Source: Micromonospora sp. ALFpr18c
GTDB lineage: Bacteria; Actinomycetota; Actinomycetes; Mycobacteriales; Micromonosporaceae
DNA length: 64,000 nucleotides
Assembly: GCF_008868155.1 (NCBI RefSeq)
Contig: NZ_WBKR01000008.1
Location: 1 to 64,000, forward strand
Direction: 5' to 3'
In this document: piece after piece, positions 35,990-43,443 of the stretch
Layout of the letters: the number at the start of each line of letters is the position of its first letter
Position numbering within the stretch: position 1 is the stretch's first letter
Position numbers and translations under genes: made by a program
The notes under the pieces: generated by a model
Databases searched by the model: none
Seen by the model: only the letters and a program-made list of their open reading frames with translations
What the model was told of the DNA's origin: nothing

Positions 35990-36609
35990 GTCAGCGCCTC
36001 GATCAGCTCGGCGGTCGCGTGGGCCGGGTCGGTGGCGGCGGAGATCGCGCCGACCACCGCCACCCCGTACGCCCCGGCGGCCCGCAGCGCCGGTACCCGG
36101 TCGGCGGTCACCGCGCCGATCGCGATGACCGGTACGTCGACGGCGTCGACGACGGCGCGTACCCCGGCGGGGCCGATGGGGTCCGGCAACCCGGGCTTGG
36201 TGGTGGTGGCGTGACACGGTCCGACGCCCAGGTAGCTGGCTCCCGCCGCGACGGCCGCGCTCGCCGTACCGGGCGCGCGGGCGGTGGCGCCCAGCACGGC
36301 GGTGGGGCCGAGCACCCGGCGGGCGGCGGCGACCGGCAGGTCGTCGGCGCCGATGTGCCCGCCGGCGGCGCCCACCGCCAGCGCCACGTGCAACCGGTCG
36401 TTGACCAGGCAGGTCGCCCCGTACGGCCGGCAGAGCGCCAGCACCTGCCGGGCCAGTTCGTACGTCTCGCGGTCGGTGGCCGAGTCCTCGACGCGGACCT
36501 GCACCACCAGGTCGGCGCGGGCCACCGTGAGGGCGGCGCGGACCACGGCGAGCGGGTCCCGACCGGGTCGGGTGTCGGTGATGAGATGCAGTCGTCCAAG
36601 GGACGGCAC
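35983..36609 (-). CDS. thiE: Thiamine-phosphate synthase
   Basis: A 208-residue TIM-barrel enzyme joining HMP pyrophosphate and thiazole phosphate. It has RLHLITDTRPGRDPL, LVNDRLHVALAVGAAGGHIGADDLPV, YLGVGPCHATTTKPGLPDPIG and VPVIAIGAVTADRVPALRAAGAYGVAVVGAI. The start is a GTG about seven bases from the riboswitch-associated Shine-Dalgarno (GGGAGGAG). It is first in the operon and therefore directly controlled by the TPP riboswitch. Confidence 0.93.
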   Translation of the reverse strand: MPSLGRLHLITDTRPGRDPLAVVRAALTVARADLVVQVRVEDSATDRETYELARQVLALCRPYGATCLVNDRLHVALAVGAAGGHIGADDLPVAAARRVLGPTAVLGATARAPGTASAAVAAGASYLGVGPCHATTTKPGLPDPIGPAGVRAVVDAVDVPVIAIGAVTADRVPALRAAGAYGVAVVGAISAATDPAHATAELIEALTC

Positions 36610-36616
36610 GGCAACG

Positions 36617-36706
36617 CTCCTCCCTGCGCCGGCATTACCCGGATCAGGTTCGACGGTCGGGGGCTGTCAGCCCCCCTCTCAGCCCGGTACACCGGGCTCC
36701 CGTGGG
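36617..36706 (-). promoter_or_regulatory. TPP riboswitch (THI element) of the thiamine operon
   Basis: On the minus strand the conserved parts read in order: CGGGAGCCCGGT, GGGCTGAGAGG, a variable P3 stem (GGGGGCTGACAGCCCCC), CGTCGAACCTGATCCGGGTAATGCC and GGCGCAGGGAGG. These match the THI-box that binds thiamine pyrophosphate. The 3' end includes the GGGAGGAG ribosome-binding sequence of thiE, which suggests translational control by hiding that site when TPP is bound. I saw no separate terminator stem. Confidence 0.95.
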
Positions 36707-36720
36707 TTACTTGCGTGTCA

Positions 36721-37006
36721 CAGTACGACGGATCCGTCGGCCTGCCAAGGGAGGGGTCGACGGGCCCGGAAGGCCGAATCAGTTGGGGTGCTTCATCCCG
36801 GTCCTGTTCGGAATGTCGCCCCCCGTTGCAGAACCGTTACCCGCCGGCATCTTGCCCGACATTGAGCGAGCCGAATTAATTTGTTCAGCGATTCGACAAA
36901 ATGCCGGCGTGGACGCCCTGGCACGGTGTCCCCACCGGCTCCATCTGGGACGGTCTTCGGCGAGCCGGCCCCCGCGATTCCTGTCCACTGCGACATTGGA
37001 GGCGGC
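36721..37006. promoter_or_regulatory. Upstream region of the large ThuA/PQQ-propeller gene
   Basis: 286 bases. The stretch 36866-36902 is sharply AT-rich and holds TTTGT (36880-36884) and ACAAA (36896-36900) as an inverted repeat separated by 11 bases, beside GAATTAAT. This resembles operators of ROK/LacI-type sugar regulators in actinomycetes; that assignment is inference. The region also holds the promoter of the riboswitch-led thi operon on the other strand. Confidence 0.4.
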
Positions 37007-40000
37007 GTGTCCCGTTCTCGTCGTGCCCGAAAACCCATCACCGCGACCCTCATCTCCCTGGCCCTCGCTTCGACGACCCTGCTCGGGTCGCCGGCGCAGG
37101 CGGCTCCCGCCGCCCAGGTCCCCCCGAAAGACGCGCAGGCCGCGGCCCCGGTGACCCAGGTGGTGCCGAAGGCGCCCAAGGCCGCCGCCGATCCCTTCTC
37201 CGTCCTGGTCTTCTCCAAGACCGCCGGCTTCCGGCACGACTCCATCCCCACCGGCATCGCCGCCATCCAGCAACTCGGCGCGGCCAACGGATTCACCGTG
37301 GACAACTCGGAGGACGGCGCGGTATTCACCGACGCCAACCTGGCCAAGTACAAGGCCGTGATCTGGCTCTCCACCACCGGCGACGTCCTCAACGCCGACC
37401 AGCAGGCGGCGTTCGAGCGCTACGTGAAGGCGGGCGGTGGCTACGTCGGCATCCACGCCGCGTCGGACACCGAGTACAGCTGGGCCTGGTACGGCGACCT
37501 GGTCGGCGCGTACTTCGCCAACCACCCGGCGAACCAGCAGGCCACGGTCAAGGTGGAGGACCACGCACACCCGTCCACCGCCGAGCTTCCGGACCGCTGG
37601 TCCCGCTTCGACGAGTGGTACAACTTCCAGACCAACCCCCGGCCGGACGTGCACGTGCTGGCCAGCCTGGACGAGAAGAGCTACACCCCGGGCGCCGGTG
37701 CGATGGGCGCCGACCACCCGACCGCCTGGTGTCAGGACTTCGACGGTGGTCGATCATGGTACACCGGCGGCGGGCACACCCGGGAGTCGTACGCCGAACC
37801 GGAGTTCCTCAAGCACCTGCTCGGCGGCATCCAGACCGCCGCCGGTGTGGTGGACGCCGACTGTGGCGCCTCGAAGACCTCCAACTTCGAGAAGGTCTCC
37901 CTTGACAGCAACACGAGCAACCCGATGGAACTGGACATCGCCGGAGACGGGCGGGTCTTCTACATCGAACGCGACGGTCGGGTGCAGATCATCAAGCCGG
38001 ACACCGGCAACACCGTCACCGCCGTCGACCTGGACGTCTTCACCGGCAACGAGGACGGCCTGATCGGCATCCGGCTCGACCCGGACTTCGCCACCAACAA
38101 GTGGGTGTACCTGTACTACGCCCCGAACGACGGCGTCACGCGCAACCTGCTGTCCCGGTTCACGGTGACCGGCGACACCATCGACCCGGCCAGCGAGAAG
38201 CAGGTGCTGCGGGTCGACACCCAGCGCAACACCTGCTGCCACGCCGGGGGCAGCATGACCTTCGACGGCGCCGGCAACCTGTACCTGGCCACCGGTGACA
38301 ACACCAACCCGTTCGAGTCGAACTCGTACTCGCCGCTCGACGAGCGGTCGGGCCGCCAGGACTACGACGCGCAGCGCACCTCGGCCAACACCAACGACCT
38401 GCGCGGCAAGGTGATCCGGATCCACCCGGAGGACGACGGGTCGTACACCGTTCCGGCCGGCAACCTCTTCGCTCCGGGCACCGAGAAGACCCGTCCCGAG
38501 ATCTACGCGATGGGCTTCCGCAACCCGTTCCGGATCGGCACCGACCCGAAGACCAACACGCTGTACGTCGCGGACTACGGGCCGGACGCCAACGCGGACA
38601 ACCCCACCCGCGGCCCGCGTGGCCTGGTCGAGTGGAACATCGTGACCCCCGGCAACTACGGCTGGCCGTACTGCACGGGCACGAACGAGGCGTACAACGA
38701 CTACACGTTCCCGTCCGGCCCGAGCGGCGCGAAGTTCGACTGCGCGGCGCCGGTGAACAACTCGCCCAACAACACCGGCCTGACCAACCTCCCGCCGGTC
38801 GTCCCCGCGACCGTCGACTACGGGTACGCCGGTGACGCCCGGTACCCGGAGATCGGCGGCGGTGGCGCCCCGATGGGCGGCCCGGTCTACCGCTACGACG
38901 CGGACCTCAACTCGACCCGCAAGTGGCCGGCCTACTACGACGGCAAGGCGCTGCTCGGCGAGTGGAACCAGAACAAGATGTACACGATGCAGCTGACCCC
39001 CGACGGCAAGTCGTTGGTGGACATCAACCAGCTGCTCACCGGGATGACCATGGTCCGGCCGATGGACTTCGAGTTCGGCCCCGACGGCGCCCTGTACCTG
39101 ATCGAGTGGGGCAGCGGCTTCGGTGGCAACAACGACAACTCGGGTGTCTACCGGATCGACTACACCGCCGGTGACCGCGCGCCGATCGCGGCGGCGTCCG
39201 CCACCCCGACCTCGGGTGCGGCGCCGTTGACCGTCACCTTCTCCAGCGCCGGCTCCCGCGACCCGGACGGTGGCGCGCTCACCTACGCCTGGGCGTTCGG
39301 CGACGGGCAGACCTCGACCGACGCTAACCCGACGCACACCTACGCCACGGCGGGCAACTACACCGCCCAGCTCACCGTCACCAACCCGAAGGGCCGTACC
39401 GCGGTGGCCAACGTGCCGATCACCGTGGGCAACACGTCCCCGACGGTCACCATCGAGTTCCCGCCGGACGGCGGGTTCTTCGACTGGGGTGACCAGGTCC
39501 GCTACACGATCAAGGTGACCGACCCCGAGGACGGGGAGATCGACTGTGCCCGGGTGAACCTCCAGGTGCTGCTGGGTCACGACGAGCACGCCCACCCGCT
39601 GGAGCAGCACACCGGCTGCACCGGCACCGTCCAGACGTCGCTCGCCTCCGGGCACGGCGCCGAGGCGAACGTCTTCGCGGTCTTCGAGGCCACCTACACC
39701 GACGACGGCGGGGCCGGCGGAGCCAGCCCGCTCACCGGTCGGGTCATCGAGGTGCTGCAGCCCAAGCGCAAGCAGGCCGAGTTCTTCACCGCCACCGGTC
39801 GGGCACCGGTGAGCACCGGCGGCGGAGACGCCGGCGTGCAGCGGGAGACCGGCGCCGACACCGCCGGCGGCGGTCAGAACATCGGGTTCATCGAGGACGG
39901 CGACTGGTGGTCGCTCGCCCCGGCGGACCTGACCAACATCAGCGAGATCCGGTTCCGGGCCGCCTCGGCCGCCGCTGGCGGTCGCATCGAGGTCCGGGCG

Positions 40001-42844
40001 GGCGCGGTGGACGGACCGGTGGTCGCCACGGCCACCGTGCCGGCGACCGGCGCGTGGCAGACGTACACGGACGTGAGCGCGCCGGTCACCGGTGCCGCGA
40101 GCGGCTCGCTGTACTTCGTGGCCCGTGACCCGAACGGCGGCTCCGGCTCGCTGTTCAACGTCAACTGGATGGACTTCGTCGGCCGCGGCGTCACCGAGAA
40201 CGCGCCGCCGGTGGTCACCGCCACCGCGACCCCGGCCGCCGGCACCGCGCCGGTCACCGTGGCGTTCGACGGCACGGCCACCGACGCCGAGGGCGACACC
40301 CCGCTGACGTACGCCTGGGACTTCGGTGACGGCGGTACGGCGTCCACGCTGGACGCCAGCCACACCTACGCCAGCCCGGGCACCTTCACGGCCACCCTCA
40401 CGGTGACCGACAGCAAGGGCGCCAAGTCGTACGCCACGGTGCCGGTGCGGGTGGACGCCCCGGACACGTCCTGCTTCGGGGCGCGTTCGGACGCCTTCGA
40501 CGGCACCAGCCTCGACAAGACCCGCTGGTCCAGCGTCATCCGGGAGAACCAGCTCTACTCGGTCAGTGGCGGCGCGCTGCGGCTGCCGACCGGCGTGGGC
40601 GACCTCTACGGCGCCCGCAACGACGCGACCAACCTGGTGCTCCAGCCGGCTCCGACCGGCGCCTGGGAGATCACCACCAAGGTCACCCTCCCGGTCACCG
40701 CCAACTACCAGCAGGCCGGTCTGCTGGTGTACGGCGACGACGACAACTACGCCAAGGTGGACCTGCTGTACAACGGCAGCCGGCGGGTGGAGTTCATCCG
40801 GGAGACGGCCGCGACGCCTCGCAACGAGGGCGCCGACAGCGCCGCCGCACCGGCGGGTGACACCGTGTACCTGCGGATCACCAGCGACGGGACGAACCTG
40901 ACCGCCGCCGCCTCGGGCGACGGGCAGACGTTCACCCCGGTCGGCCGTTCGGCCGCGCTCGCCGGCATCACCAACCCGCGGATCGGGGTCTTCGCACTCA
41001 ACGGCGGCACCGAGGCGCCGGTGGTCGACGCGGCCTTCGATTCGTTCCAGGTGACGCCGGACGCTCCGGCCGGCCCGGTCGACCCGTCGGACGAGTTCAC
41101 CGGCGACACGCTGGACAAGTGCCGCTGGGACGCGATCCTGCGGGAGGACCCGGCCGGTTACCGGGTCACCGGCGGCGCGCTGCGGATCGACGTGCCCAAC
41201 GGTGACATCTACGGCACCGACAACACCGGGCCGAAGAACTTCATCCTCCAGACCGCGCCGTCAGGCGACTGGACCCTGGAGACGAAGGTCGACGGCAGTC
41301 TGCTGAACGAGCAGTACCAGCAGGCCGGTCTGCTCGTGCAGGCCGACGACGACAACTACCTGAAGTTCGACTTCATCGCGGACAACCAGGCCGGCCAGGC
41401 GGTGACGCGGCGGATCGAGTTCCGCAGCGAGATCGGCGGGGCGGTGCAGAACCCGCAGCCGGAGGCGACCAGCCTCACCTCGGCGGTGTGGCACCTGCGA
41501 CTGGCCCGCACCGGCGACACGTTCACCGCGTCGTACTCGGCCGACGGGACGACCTGGACCGCGTTGGAGGCGCTGACCAACAGCGCGGTGGGCGCCACCC
41601 CGAAGGTCGGGTTGTTCACCCTCGGCGCCAACCAGACCGCCTCGAAGACCGCCGCGTTCGACTACTTCCGGTTGAGCACGAAGGTCGCCGACGAGACCGC
41701 GCCGGTCACCACGGCGGCGGTTTCGGGCACCCCGACCGAGGGGTGGTACACCGGTCCGGTGACGGTGACCCTCACCGCCGCCGACGAGGCCGGCGGCAGT
41801 GGGCTGGCCAGCACCGAGTACCAGCTGGACGGGGCCACCACCTGGACGGCGTACACCGCTCCGGTGGCGATCAGTGGGGACGGCGAGCACGAGCTGCGGT
41901 TCCGCTCGACCGATGAGGCGGGCAACGTGGAGTCGACGAAGACCGTCACGGTCAAGATCGACGCCACCGCACCGGTCACGACGGCGACGTTCGCTCCCGC
42001 GAACGACGCCGGCTGGCACAACGGGACGATCCCGGTGGTGCTGACCTCTACCGACGCCGGTTCCGGGGTCAAGACGGTGGAGTGGTCGTTGGACGGTGGC
42101 GCGTGGACGCCGTACACGGCGCCGGTCGAGGTGACCGGCGACGGGCAGCACGAGCTGCTGTTCCGGTCCACCGACAAGGCGGGCAACGCCGAGACGCTCA
42201 AGTCGGCGGTGCTGCGCATCGACGGCACCAAGCCGACGCTGCTGGTGTCCGGGATCGCCGACGGCCAGCTCTACGGCGACAGCCAGGACGTCCGGGTGTC
42301 CTGGCAGGCCGTCGACCCCACCTCGGGCATCGCGTCCGTGGTCGGTCAGCTCGACGGCAGGGCGTACGCCAGCGGCACCCTGCAGGCCATGTACGAGCTG
42401 CCGCTCGGCCTGCACGAGCTGACCGTCACCGCGACCGACAAGGCGGGCAACACGACCACCTCGACGGTCCGGTTCTTCGTCACCACCTCGTTCCGGGACA
42501 TGCAGAACCTGCTGGACCGGTTCAAGGCGACGGGTCGACTCTCGGCCACGGCGCACAAGCAGCTGAAGGCGAAGCTCGACGCGGCCCGCCAGGCCGAGGC
42601 GGCCGGCAACGACAGCAAGGCGATCAAGCAGTTGACGCAGTTCCGGACGCTCGCCGCCGACGCCACCCTGGTGGCCGAGGCGGAGGTCCGGGACGTCCTG
42701 ATCCGGGACGCCGACGCCATGATCGTCCGGCTGGGCGGTACGGCCAGTAAGGCCGGAGTCAAGGCGAACGACGGCGAACCGGTCAAGGGCGCCGGGCGGC
42801 TCGGTGGCGACACCACCCGGCTGGCACCCGGTCGCCAGCTCTGA
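37007..42844 (+). CDS. Secreted multidomain protein: ThuA, PQQ-type sugar dehydrogenase propeller, PKD, CBM6 and lectin-like modules
   Basis: A 1945-residue exported protein. It starts at GTG 37007 behind GGAGG, with a twin-Arg-like basic N-terminus, a hydrophobic core (ATLISLALASTTLL) and cleavage near AQA. Approximate domains: ThuA-like 60-280 (FSVLVFSKTAGFRHDSI); soluble glucose-dehydrogenase-like beta-propeller 293-725 (GDNTNPFE, GFRNPFRIG); PKD 725-808; an Ig/bacterial domain 811-921; CBM6 921-1061; second PKD 1065-1151; two DUF1349-like lectin folds 1155-1351 and 1360-1561; three OmpL47/Big-type repeats 1562-1828; and a helical C-terminus. It probably binds and oxidises an extracellular polysaccharide or sugar. 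There is no sortase signal and no transmembrane anchor. Confidence 0.85.
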   Translation: MSRSRRARKPITATLISLALASTTLLGSPAQAAPAAQVPPKDAQAAAPVTQVVPKAPKAAADPFSVLVFSKTAGFRHDSIPTGIAAIQQLGAANGFTVDNSEDGAVFTDANLAKYKAVIWLSTTGDVLNADQQAAFERYVKAGGGYVGIHAASDTEYSWAWYGDLVGAYFANHPANQQATVKVEDHAHPSTAELPDRWSRFDEWYNFQTNPRPDVHVLASLDEKSYTPGAGAMGADHPTAWCQDFDGGRSWYTGGGHTRESYAEPEFLKHLLGGIQTAAGVVDADCGASKTSNFEKVSLDSNTSNPMELDIAGDGRVFYIERDGRVQIIKPDTGNTVTAVDLDVFTGNEDGLIGIRLDPDFATNKWVYLYYAPNDGVTRNLLSRFTVTGDTIDPASEKQVLRVDTQRNTCCHAGGSMTFDGAGNLYLATGDNTNPFESNSYSPLDERSGRQDYDAQRTSANTNDLRGKVIRIHPEDDGSYTVPAGNLFAPGTEKTRPEIYAMGFRNPFRIGTDPKTNTLYVADYGPDANADNPTRGPRGLVEWNIVTPGNYGWPYCTGTNEAYNDYTFPSGPSGAKFDCAAPVNNSPNNTGLTNLPPVVPATVDYGYAGDARYPEIGGGGAPMGGPVYRYDADLNSTRKWPAYYDGKALLGEWNQNKMYTMQLTPDGKSLVDINQLLTGMTMVRPMDFEFGPDGALYLIEWGSGFGGNNDNSGVYRIDYTAGDRAPIAAASATPTSGAAPLTVTFSSAGSRDPDGGALTYAWAFGDGQTSTDANPTHTYATAGNYTAQLTVTNPKGRTAVANVPITVGNTSPTVTIEFPPDGGFFDWGDQVRYTIKVTDPEDGEIDCARVNLQVLLGHDEHAHPLEQHTGCTGTVQTSLASGHGAEANVFAVFEATYTDDGGAGGASPLTGRVIEVLQPKRKQAEFFTATGRAPVSTGGGDAGVQRETGADTAGGGQNIGFIEDGDWWSLAPADLTNISEIRFRAASAAAGGRIEVRAGAVDGPVVATATVPATGAWQTYTDVSAPVTGAASGSLYFVARDPNGGSGSLFNVNWMDFVGRGVTENAPPVVTATATPAAGTAPVTVAFDGTATDAEGDTPLTYAWDFGDGGTASTLDASHTYASPGTFTATLTVTDSKGAKSYATVPVRVDAPDTSCFGARSDAFDGTSLDKTRWSSVIRENQLYSVSGGALRLPTGVGDLYGARNDATNLVLQPAPTGAWEITTKVTLPVTANYQQAGLLVYGDDDNYAKVDLLYNGSRRVEFIRETAATPRNEGADSAAAPAGDTVYLRITSDGTNLTAAASGDGQTFTPVGRSAALAGITNPRIGVFALNGGTEAPVVDAAFDSFQVTPDAPAGPVDPSDEFTGDTLDKCRWDAILREDPAGYRVTGGALRIDVPNGDIYGTDNTGPKNFILQTAPSGDWTLETKVDGSLLNEQYQQAGLLVQADDDNYLKFDFIADNQAGQAVTRRIEFRSEIGGAVQNPQPEATSLTSAVWHLRLARTGDTFTASYSADGTTWTALEALTNSAVGATPKVGLFTLGANQTASKTAAFDYFRLSTKVADETAPVTTAAVSGTPTEGWYTGPVTVTLTAADEAGGSGLASTEYQLDGATTWTAYTAPVAISGDGEHELRFRSTDEAGNVESTKTVTVKIDATAPVTTATFAPANDAGWHNGTIPVVLTSTDAGSGVKTVEWSLDGGAWTPYTAPVEVTGDGQHELLFRSTDKAGNAETLKSAVLRIDGTKPTLLVSGIADGQLYGDSQDVRVSWQAVDPTSGIASVVGQLDGRAYASGTLQAMYELPLGLHELTVTATDKAGNTTTSTVRFFVTTSFRDMQNLLDRFKATGRLSATAHKQLKAKLDAARQAEAAGNDSKAIKQLTQFRTLAADATLVAEAEVRDVLIRDADAMIVRLGGTASKAGVKANDGEPVKGAGRLGGDTTRLAPGRQL

Positions 42845-42909: not shown

Positions 42910-43443
42910 ATGTCCGTGACGGGTATCCGCAAGGTGCTGGCCGCCGTGGTCGCCGGACTGGCTCTGACCCTGCTCGCCGCACCCCCGGCGGCGGCGCAGG
43001 CCGACAAACTCAAACTGACGGTGGCCGGCGACGGGGCCGAGGGGGTCACCATCCAGGCCACCTACGCCGACGGTCGTCGGCTGGACAAGCTGGTGCGGTT
43101 GGTCCTCACCGCCACCGGCCCGGACGGGCAGAAGGTCGGCCCGGTGCAACTCGAACCGCAGCCCGAGGGGCAGGGCTTCTACACCAGCGGTCCGCTGCTC
43201 ACGGCCGGCAGTTGGCGGGTGACGGTGAACTCCCCCGCCCCGCTGCAGACCCAGGCCACCGCCACGGTGCAGGCCCGGGCGGCACAGTCACCGCCGGCGC
43301 CCAAGCCGGTCGCGGTCACCGCGGACCGGGCCGACGGACGCGGGGGGAACGCCGGGTGGTGGCCGTTCGCGGCGGCCGGGCTGGTGCTCGTCGCCGCCGC
43401 GATGGGGGTCGCCATGCTGTTCGGCCGCCGCCGCACCGACTGA
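42910..43443 (+). CDS. Small secreted, C-terminally membrane-anchored protein
   Basis: A 177-residue protein starting at ATG 42910 behind GAGGAG. The signal peptide (VLAAVVAGLALTLLAAPPAAAQA) is followed by an all-beta Ig-like domain of about 90 residues (LKLTVAGDGAEGVTIQATYADG to GSWRVTVNSPAP). A Pro/Ala linker, one C-terminal transmembrane segment (WWPFAAAGLVLVAAAMGVAML) and a short basic tail (FGRRRTD) complete it. No function is recognised. It follows the large secreted protein after a terminator, so co-regulation rather than co-transcription is likely. Confidence 0.75.
   Translation: MSVTGIRKVLAAVVAGLALTLLAAPPAAAQADKLKLTVAGDGAEGVTIQATYADGRRLDKLVRLVLTATGPDGQKVGPVQLEPQPEGQGFYTSGPLLTAGSWRVTVNSPAPLQTQATATVQARAAQSPPAPKPVAVTADRADGRGGNAGWWPFAAAGLVLVAAAMGVAMLFGRRRTD

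Follow-up and report, generated by a model that had tools for sequence, protein, structure and literature searches.

The ThuA-GSDH gene and its upstream operator

In a window of 64,000 nucleotides from Micromonospora sp. ALFpr18c (RefSeq assembly GCF_008868155.1, contig NZ_WBKR01000008.1, positions 1 to 64,000), a gene on the forward strand (37007–42844) encodes a secreted protein of 1945 residues with the domain order ThuA-GSDH-PKD-CBM6-PKD-lectin-lectin-OmpL47-FIMAH (open reading frame list and profile matches; Table 1), and it is preceded by an inverted repeat, TTTGTTCAGCGATTCGACAAA, which matches the predicted operator of the xylose isomerase gene xylA in the same genome. Because homologues and own-genome paralogues are numerous, the architecture is ordinary in Micromonosporaceae; the operator is the informative part of the locus and is the find reported here.

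The reading frame is open from a TTG at 36881, and a GTG start at 37007 has a GGAGG ribosome site before it; from this GTG to the stop at 42844 there are exactly 1945 residues, with a signal peptide at the N-terminus. Open reading frame, signal peptide and profile matches agree with the original prediction of a secreted ThuA/propeller/PKD/CBM6 protein of this length (domain residue numbers are counted from 36881, and 42 is subtracted for numbering from the GTG). The ThuA domain has a structure match to 4jqs, and the PF07995 match of the propeller covers residues 346–613, corresponding to profile positions 2–236 of 332. Of the nine accessory modules that follow, carbohydrate-binding types account for only three, namely CBM6 and the two GH43-type lectin domains, and an earlier count of at least eight binding modules is not supported as stated. 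In the model of the binding part (predicted local distance difference test, pLDDT, 84.5), the top Foldseek matches are GH43 beta-xylosidases and xyloglucan GH43 enzymes, and PF17851 is the C-terminal sandwich of the matched GH43 enzymes (family name from the profile match). To judge from these matches, the CBM6 and GH43-type lectin domains are in keeping with xylan as the target, short of proof.

A scan of named genomes yielded 80 kept matches at 73 loci, nearly all in Micromonosporaceae and most aligned over most of their length, with the closest relatives in M. orduensis (97%) and M. parastrephiae (96%) and the most distant at about 57% identity. The genome of the window itself holds 11 ThuA and 11 GSDH matches.

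The element originally described as TTTGT-n11-ACAAA lies at 36880–36900; the window has no further exact match, and none occurred in 100 shuffles. This shuffle test is weak by itself because the motif was picked after being seen, and the element is taken as real on the strength of conservation tests on homologue upstreams rather than shuffles. Chance as its origin was ruled out by that conservation, by the genome-wide match at xylA and by the matrix scores given below. Many relatives have the exact 21-mer upstream; in others the left half TTTGTTCA is retained, with the right half TCGACATA in many Micromonospora and TGAACTAT in Catellatospora, and Phytohabitans has TTCGTTAA as the left half and ATAACAAA as the right half. 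Among the 58 upstreams that have complete flanks and match at 14 or more of the 21 positions, the mean majority-base agreement is 0.894 in the operator columns, compared with 0.727 on one side and 0.591 on the other over 60 bases each.

The predicted operator overlies the TAATTT hexamer, as a repressor site would, and the xylA promoter has a TTGACA at a similar place to the -35-like box of the window. A consensus promoter scanner, which disallows the 19-nucleotide spacing found here, called no promoter in the 36880 region. The CGTTACC block farther upstream may be a candidate activator site.

Relation to the xylA promoter

In a search of the 6.7 Mb genome with the symmetrised motif TTTGTTCA-n5-TGAACAAA, allowing up to three mismatches, two distinct places were found (one in the backward control). 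The second, TTTGTTCAGCGATTGAATTAT, is situated between a ROK-family repressor gene and xylA (TIGR02631, 714 bits), which is followed by the xylulokinase gene xylB, and it shares 14 consecutive bases with the site at 36880. Apart from the window site, a looser search with TTAATTTGTTCA returned a single site (C233), which is unremarkable. Other two-mismatch sites were considered as regulon members and set aside, as none resembles a sugar-gene promoter (a quick look at coding frames, in which not all sites were settled).

The pairing of operator, xylA and ROK gene is widespread. In a survey of 30 of the 73 homologue loci, xylA was found in all 30 genomes, and when the genome of the window is counted, the operator is present at the xylA promoter in 30 of 31 genomes and a nearby ROK gene is transcribed divergently from xylA in 30 of 31, the exception being a Virgisporangium with neither operator nor ROK gene. 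Of 41 genomes from the genus, 38 have a match to a stricter operator pattern; among 29 strict-site loci that were read, 25 are at xylA, one at xylB (L172) and one at a ROK gene (L176), where the xylA-type promoter is cut by the contig end. A similar arrangement, with a ROK gene beside xylA and an inverted-repeat operator at the xylA promoter, is described for ROK-family XylR in Firmicutes and for the Streptomyces xyl operon (PMC2873477, PMC6149001). The Micromonospora system differs from these in the operator letters, TTTGTTCA-n5-TGAAYWAW, and in having a secreted ThuA-GSDH protein as an additional predicted target. In another Micromonospora (L164, 1480–1545), a site, TTGGTTCACGGCGTGAAT, was seen with a second ROK-like gene on one side and a gene for a secreted binding protein on the other, with similar sites in G049 and G056.

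A scoring matrix was built from 12 distinct xylA sites only, with the spacer masked and G019 left out, and was compared with a background of 2392 windows of the same loci. Of the 73 upstreams scored, which include that of the window (L027, with no upstream DNA, was dropped), 64 exceeded the 99% background level, and four, all from Catellatospora, beat every background window (33 bits, where the background reached 20 at most); in Catellatospora a near-perfect operator stands at both xylA and the ThuA-GSDH gene. Eight loci (L020, L023, L025, L037, L050, L054, L060 and L063) carry a shorter tandem ThuA-GSDH paralogue directly upstream, and none of the eight has the operator (one with only 133 nucleotides upstream); it is likewise found at none of seven ThuA paralogues in the genome of the window. 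Because of the match to the xylA/ROK site, its presence in 64 of 73 upstreams and the paralogues without a site, the ThuA-GSDH gene is most likely a member of the xylose (XylR) regulon, with xylan as the target. The inverted repeat had been compared with sugar-regulator operators in the original prediction, and the match to the ROK repressor/xylA operator of the same genome bears this out at the level of sequence; the substrate, which that prediction left open, now has a hint towards xylose or xylan.

Several observations weigh against this assignment. Nine upstreams fall below the 99% level, namely three Asanoa loci (L042, L051 and L076), three outgroup loci (L075, L079 and L081), and L036, L080 and L053. 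At all of these the operator is absent or unconvincing, as it is at the Asanoa locus L072, which, like L070, passes only at a place away from the conserved position, and several other loci are weak. The window operator itself is imperfect (right half TCGACAAA) and scores 16.9 bits, and one of the 2392 background windows is higher. No xylanase or xylosidase with the operator was seen in the genome of the window by strict patterns. In addition, since the homologues are related, the 64 upstreams are not 64 independent events, and the ThuA-GSDH gene is with this caution predicted to be controlled by the xylose ROK repressor.

Propeller active site and proposed function

The propeller model (pLDDT 70.8; predicted template modelling score 0.76) aligns with 3a9g, a sugar dehydrogenase dependent on pyrroloquinoline quinone (PQQ), over 323 residues (VIA-align Z 37.6, root-mean-square deviation 2.4). 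Its structure matches include PQQ sugar dehydrogenases at Z 34–38, the human hedgehog-interacting protein (HHIP) at Z 32.2, and chains of the fungal family AA12 at about Z 30 and 14–15% identity. His454, Arg547, Asn548, Gly578 and Pro579 are the same in all 74 sequences and align with His144, Arg228-Asn229 and Gly247-Pro248 of the soluble glucose dehydrogenase sGDH, whose roles are described in PMC6881810. The two PQQ carboxylate contacts of bacterial sGDH, Lys377 and Arg408 (PMC6881789), are lost; the Lys377 position is occupied by Asn696 after Trp695, both also invariant in 74 of 74. The structure alignments took in 44 and 42 of the 74 sequences. The recovered own-genome ThuA-type paralogues have other letters at the Trp-Asn position, and two invariant cysteines directly before the histidine are absent from C165, the non-ThuA GSDH recovered from the genome, in a comparison made without two own-genome GSDH loci (L082 and L088). 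On these alignments, the catalytic core is retained and the active site is partly changed. A loss of active-site residues and an operator missing from homologous promoters had been named earlier as refuting outcomes. For the first the result was divided: the core is kept throughout, whereas the equivalents of Lys377 and Arg408 are gone. For the second, 64 of 73 upstreams have the operator at the 99% background level and nine do not.

Compared with sGDH (1CQ1), Asd (2G8S) and 3A9G, all in PF07995, the window protein is alike in the six-bladed propeller, catalytic histidine, Arg-Asn pair and Gly-Pro calcium loop, and unlike them in the two replaced contacts, the vicinal cysteine pair and the fusion to ThuA and binding modules. 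The AA12 enzymes CcPDH and TrAA12 share with it the histidine, two arginines, a same-chain CBM and the fold (PMC6881789), but they are fungal, whereas the window protein is bacterial, ThuA-fused and without a cytochrome domain. A possible further likeness is Trp-Asn at the place of Lys377, an equivalence drawn from sequence position in a region where the alignment is weak. As CcPDH also lacks Lys377 and has Trp563-Asn564 there instead, according to PMC6881789, the lost Lys and Arg were dropped as a disproof of PQQ binding.

In the genome of the window, pqqC was not recognisable by profile, and the same model scored over its cut-off in 6 of the 198 phylum-sample genomes; the search of the genome for pqqE gave sub-cut-off matches only, as in all 14 control genomes. 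PQQ would therefore need to be scavenged.

The explanation that we favour, with a confidence slightly better than even, is that the gene is a member of the xylose regulon and encodes a secreted, xylan-held, sugar-oxidising propeller with a ThuA domain acting on its product. A ROK repressor of the XylR type, encoded beside xylA, would bind the operator at 36880 overlapping the promoter, and xylose would relieve repression of the ThuA-GSDH gene. The CBM6 and the two GH43-xylosidase-type lectin domains would hold the secreted protein on xylan. There, in an active site resembling the one in fungal AA12, the GSDH propeller would use calcium and a quinone-type cofactor to oxidise sugars that contain xylose, and the oxidised sugar would be acted on by the fused ThuA domain. 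The architecture, the operator match, the operator conservation and the retained catalytic residues are what the sequences themselves provide; from them we infer repressor binding, xylose induction, xylan binding, which sugar and cofactor are used in the oxidation, and the ThuA step. The predicted xylose link is the strong result, and the chemistry is a proposal.

ThuA is given a role after oxidation because of the gene set at the Cellulosimicrobium homologue (L081), where two Gfo/Idh/MocA oxidoreductase genes lie on either side, with genes for sugar transporters and for a TIM barrel like xylose isomerase nearby; next to the C46 paralogue in the genome of the window is a TIM barrel with 77% identity to this one. 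Gfo and TIM-barrel enzymes form oxidation-elimination-hydration-reduction operons (PMC10628242), and the 3-keto-glycoside operons (Agrobacterium AtOGE/AtHYD/Gfo and the BT2157-type DUF1080) resemble the L081 locus in these partners. The window gene differs in having no adjoining partners, with no Gfo/Idh/MocA or TIM-barrel enzymes among the flanking genes read, no DUF1080 match, and a secreted GSDH propeller as the oxidase.

Points against the proposed chemistry are that a proven ThuA activity was not met in the literature searched, that the active-site loops of the propeller are of low confidence in the model, that two PQQ contacts of sGDH are lost, and that pqqC was not found in the genome. 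The earlier view of polysaccharide-targeted oxidation outside the cell is plausible.

A bolder version, which is speculative and rather doubtful, would make the protein a bacterial counterpart of fungal AA12: xylan-tethered and quinone-dependent, with a Cys-Cys-His plus Trp-Asn site, the ThuA domain of the same chain processing the keto-sugar, PQQ scavenged from neighbours, and a xylose/XylR switch opening an oxidative xylan route beside hydrolysis. Soil actinobacteria have many secreted ThuA-GSDH proteins, and the tie of one member to a xylose operator would give a concrete substrate lead and a named regulator. If the propeller is active, an oxidative, PQQ-type step would be added to bacterial xylan use, and if ThuA acts on the propeller product, ThuA would gain a chemistry.

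The gene could also be in the xylose regulon while ThuA and propeller are catalytically idle, the protein then serving as a xylan-binding surface or matrix adhesin with the propeller as a scaffold, as in HHIP. The lost equivalents of Lys377 and Arg408, the failure to find pqqC, the shared fold of HHIP and a remaining chain of binding and spacer modules are all consistent with such a role, but the invariance of the His, Arg-Asn and Gly-Pro residues down to about 57% identity is unexpected for an idle site and the ThuA score is far over its cut-off, and we consider this unlikely. Alternatively, the inverted repeat might be bound by another regulator, its likeness to the xylA operator being coincidental or due to shared promoter geometry, given that an AT-rich TAATT and a TTGnC box are similarly spaced in the two promoters, that the right half of the window site is imperfect and that further ROK or LacI proteins may exist. 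However, the eight-base half-site, the spacer and the right half agree beyond TAATT, strict sites are at xyl genes in 27 of the 29 places read in the genus and Catellatospora has its near-perfect sites at both genes, which makes this reading improbable. Least probable is a propeller serving as an extracellular electron source, an AA12-like dehydrogenase feeding lytic polysaccharide monooxygenases on xylan or cellulose with ThuA as an accessory, for which the Trp-Asn motif, the AA12 fold matches, the fungal CcPDH driving such monooxygenases (PMC5960967) and CBM-bearing GSDH proteins in a shipworm symbiont secretome (PMC12055684) can be cited, but the cytochrome domain that CcPDH needs according to PMC5960967 was not found in the protein.

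Neighbouring genes and related loci

Table 1. Features of the ThuA-GSDH locus, in window coordinates
Feature	Position	Strand	Remarks
TPP (thiamine pyrophosphate) riboswitch	36604–36713	-	RF00059, 64.1 bits; precedes divergent thiamine genes
CGTTACC block upstream of promoter	36835–36841	+	conserved in most Micromonospora upstreams
-35-like TTGCCC	36852–36857	+	TTGCC/TTGAC kept in homologues; 19 nucleotides before TAATTT
-10-like TAATTT, overlapped by operator	36877–36882	+	by reading of the window and aligned upstreams
Predicted XylR(ROK)-type operator, TTTGTTCAGCGATTCGACAAA	36880–36900	+	match to xylA/ROK site; kept upstream of homologues
Signal peptide	37007–37102	+	by reading: basic start, hydrophobic core, AQA/A cleavage motif
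ThuA	37202–37834	+	PF06283, 277.5 bits (cut-off 33.4); residues 108–318
GSDH six-bladed propeller	37916–39160	+	PF07995, 139.7 bits (cut-off 25)
Cys-Cys-His: predicted catalytic-base His (sGDH His144 equivalent) and vicinal Cys pair	38234–38242	+	invariant, 74/74
Arg-Asn pair (sGDH Arg228-Asn229 equivalents)	38519–38524	+	74/74
Gly-Pro calcium loop (sGDH Gly247-Pro248 equivalents)	38612–38617	+	74/74
Trp-Asn at sGDH Lys377 position	38963–38968	+	74/74; compare AA12 Trp563-Asn564
Arg-Pro-Met	39056–39064	+	first Arg kept 71/74; Arg408 equivalent is Met in 73/74
PKD domain 1	39179–39424	+	PF18911 (PKD_4); residues 767–848
CBM6	39827–40180	+	PF03422, 78.5 bits (cut-off 28.9); residues 983–1100
PKD domain 2, approximate ends	40190–40456	+	second PF18911 stretch; strands in model
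GH43_C2 lectin-like domain 1	40487–41053	+	PF17851; residues 1203–1391; structure matches
DUF1349 lectin-like domain 2	41150–41677	+	PF07081; residues 1424–1599; structure matches
Three OmpL47-type domains	41747–42484	+	NF047446
FIMAH	42494–42724	+	PF22888; residues 1872–1948
Small secreted/membrane-anchored protein, probable operon partner	42910–43443	+	65-nucleotide gap after stop

To the left of the gene lies a thiamine operon on the opposite strand (an operon by reading), and to the right are the small anchored protein, an aldo/keto reductase and an ABC-ATPase. The riboswitch was rejected as a regulator of the ThuA-GSDH gene, being on the other strand and serving the thiamine genes. The adjacent open reading frames read agree with the earlier statement that no transporter or glycoside hydrolase accompanies the gene.

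The small anchored protein has, by reading, a signal peptide and a single membrane segment, and no Pfam family matched it above the cut-off; its homologue at L033 shows a weak YtkA-like similarity (E 0.0032, below the cut-off). It is close downstream in most homologous loci, including those of Asanoa without thiE, is farther away in Phytohabitans and a few other loci, and was not found at the Catellatospora homologue loci. In M. pattaloongensis (L032, 11807–12490), an unrelated secreted-looking protein of 228 amino acids with no Pfam match separates the ThuA-GSDH gene from the small anchored protein.

No study of a ThuA-GSDH fusion was found in the literature searched at the level of titles. 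Elsewhere in the genome of the window (C48; L144, 2302–18860), another ThuA-type protein is encoded in a putative oxidative sugar pathway cluster, which by reading comprises ATP-binding cassette (ABC) sugar transporters, a short-chain dehydrogenase/reductase, a zinc alcohol dehydrogenase, an enolase-type dehydratase, an amidohydrolase and a TIM-barrel protein.

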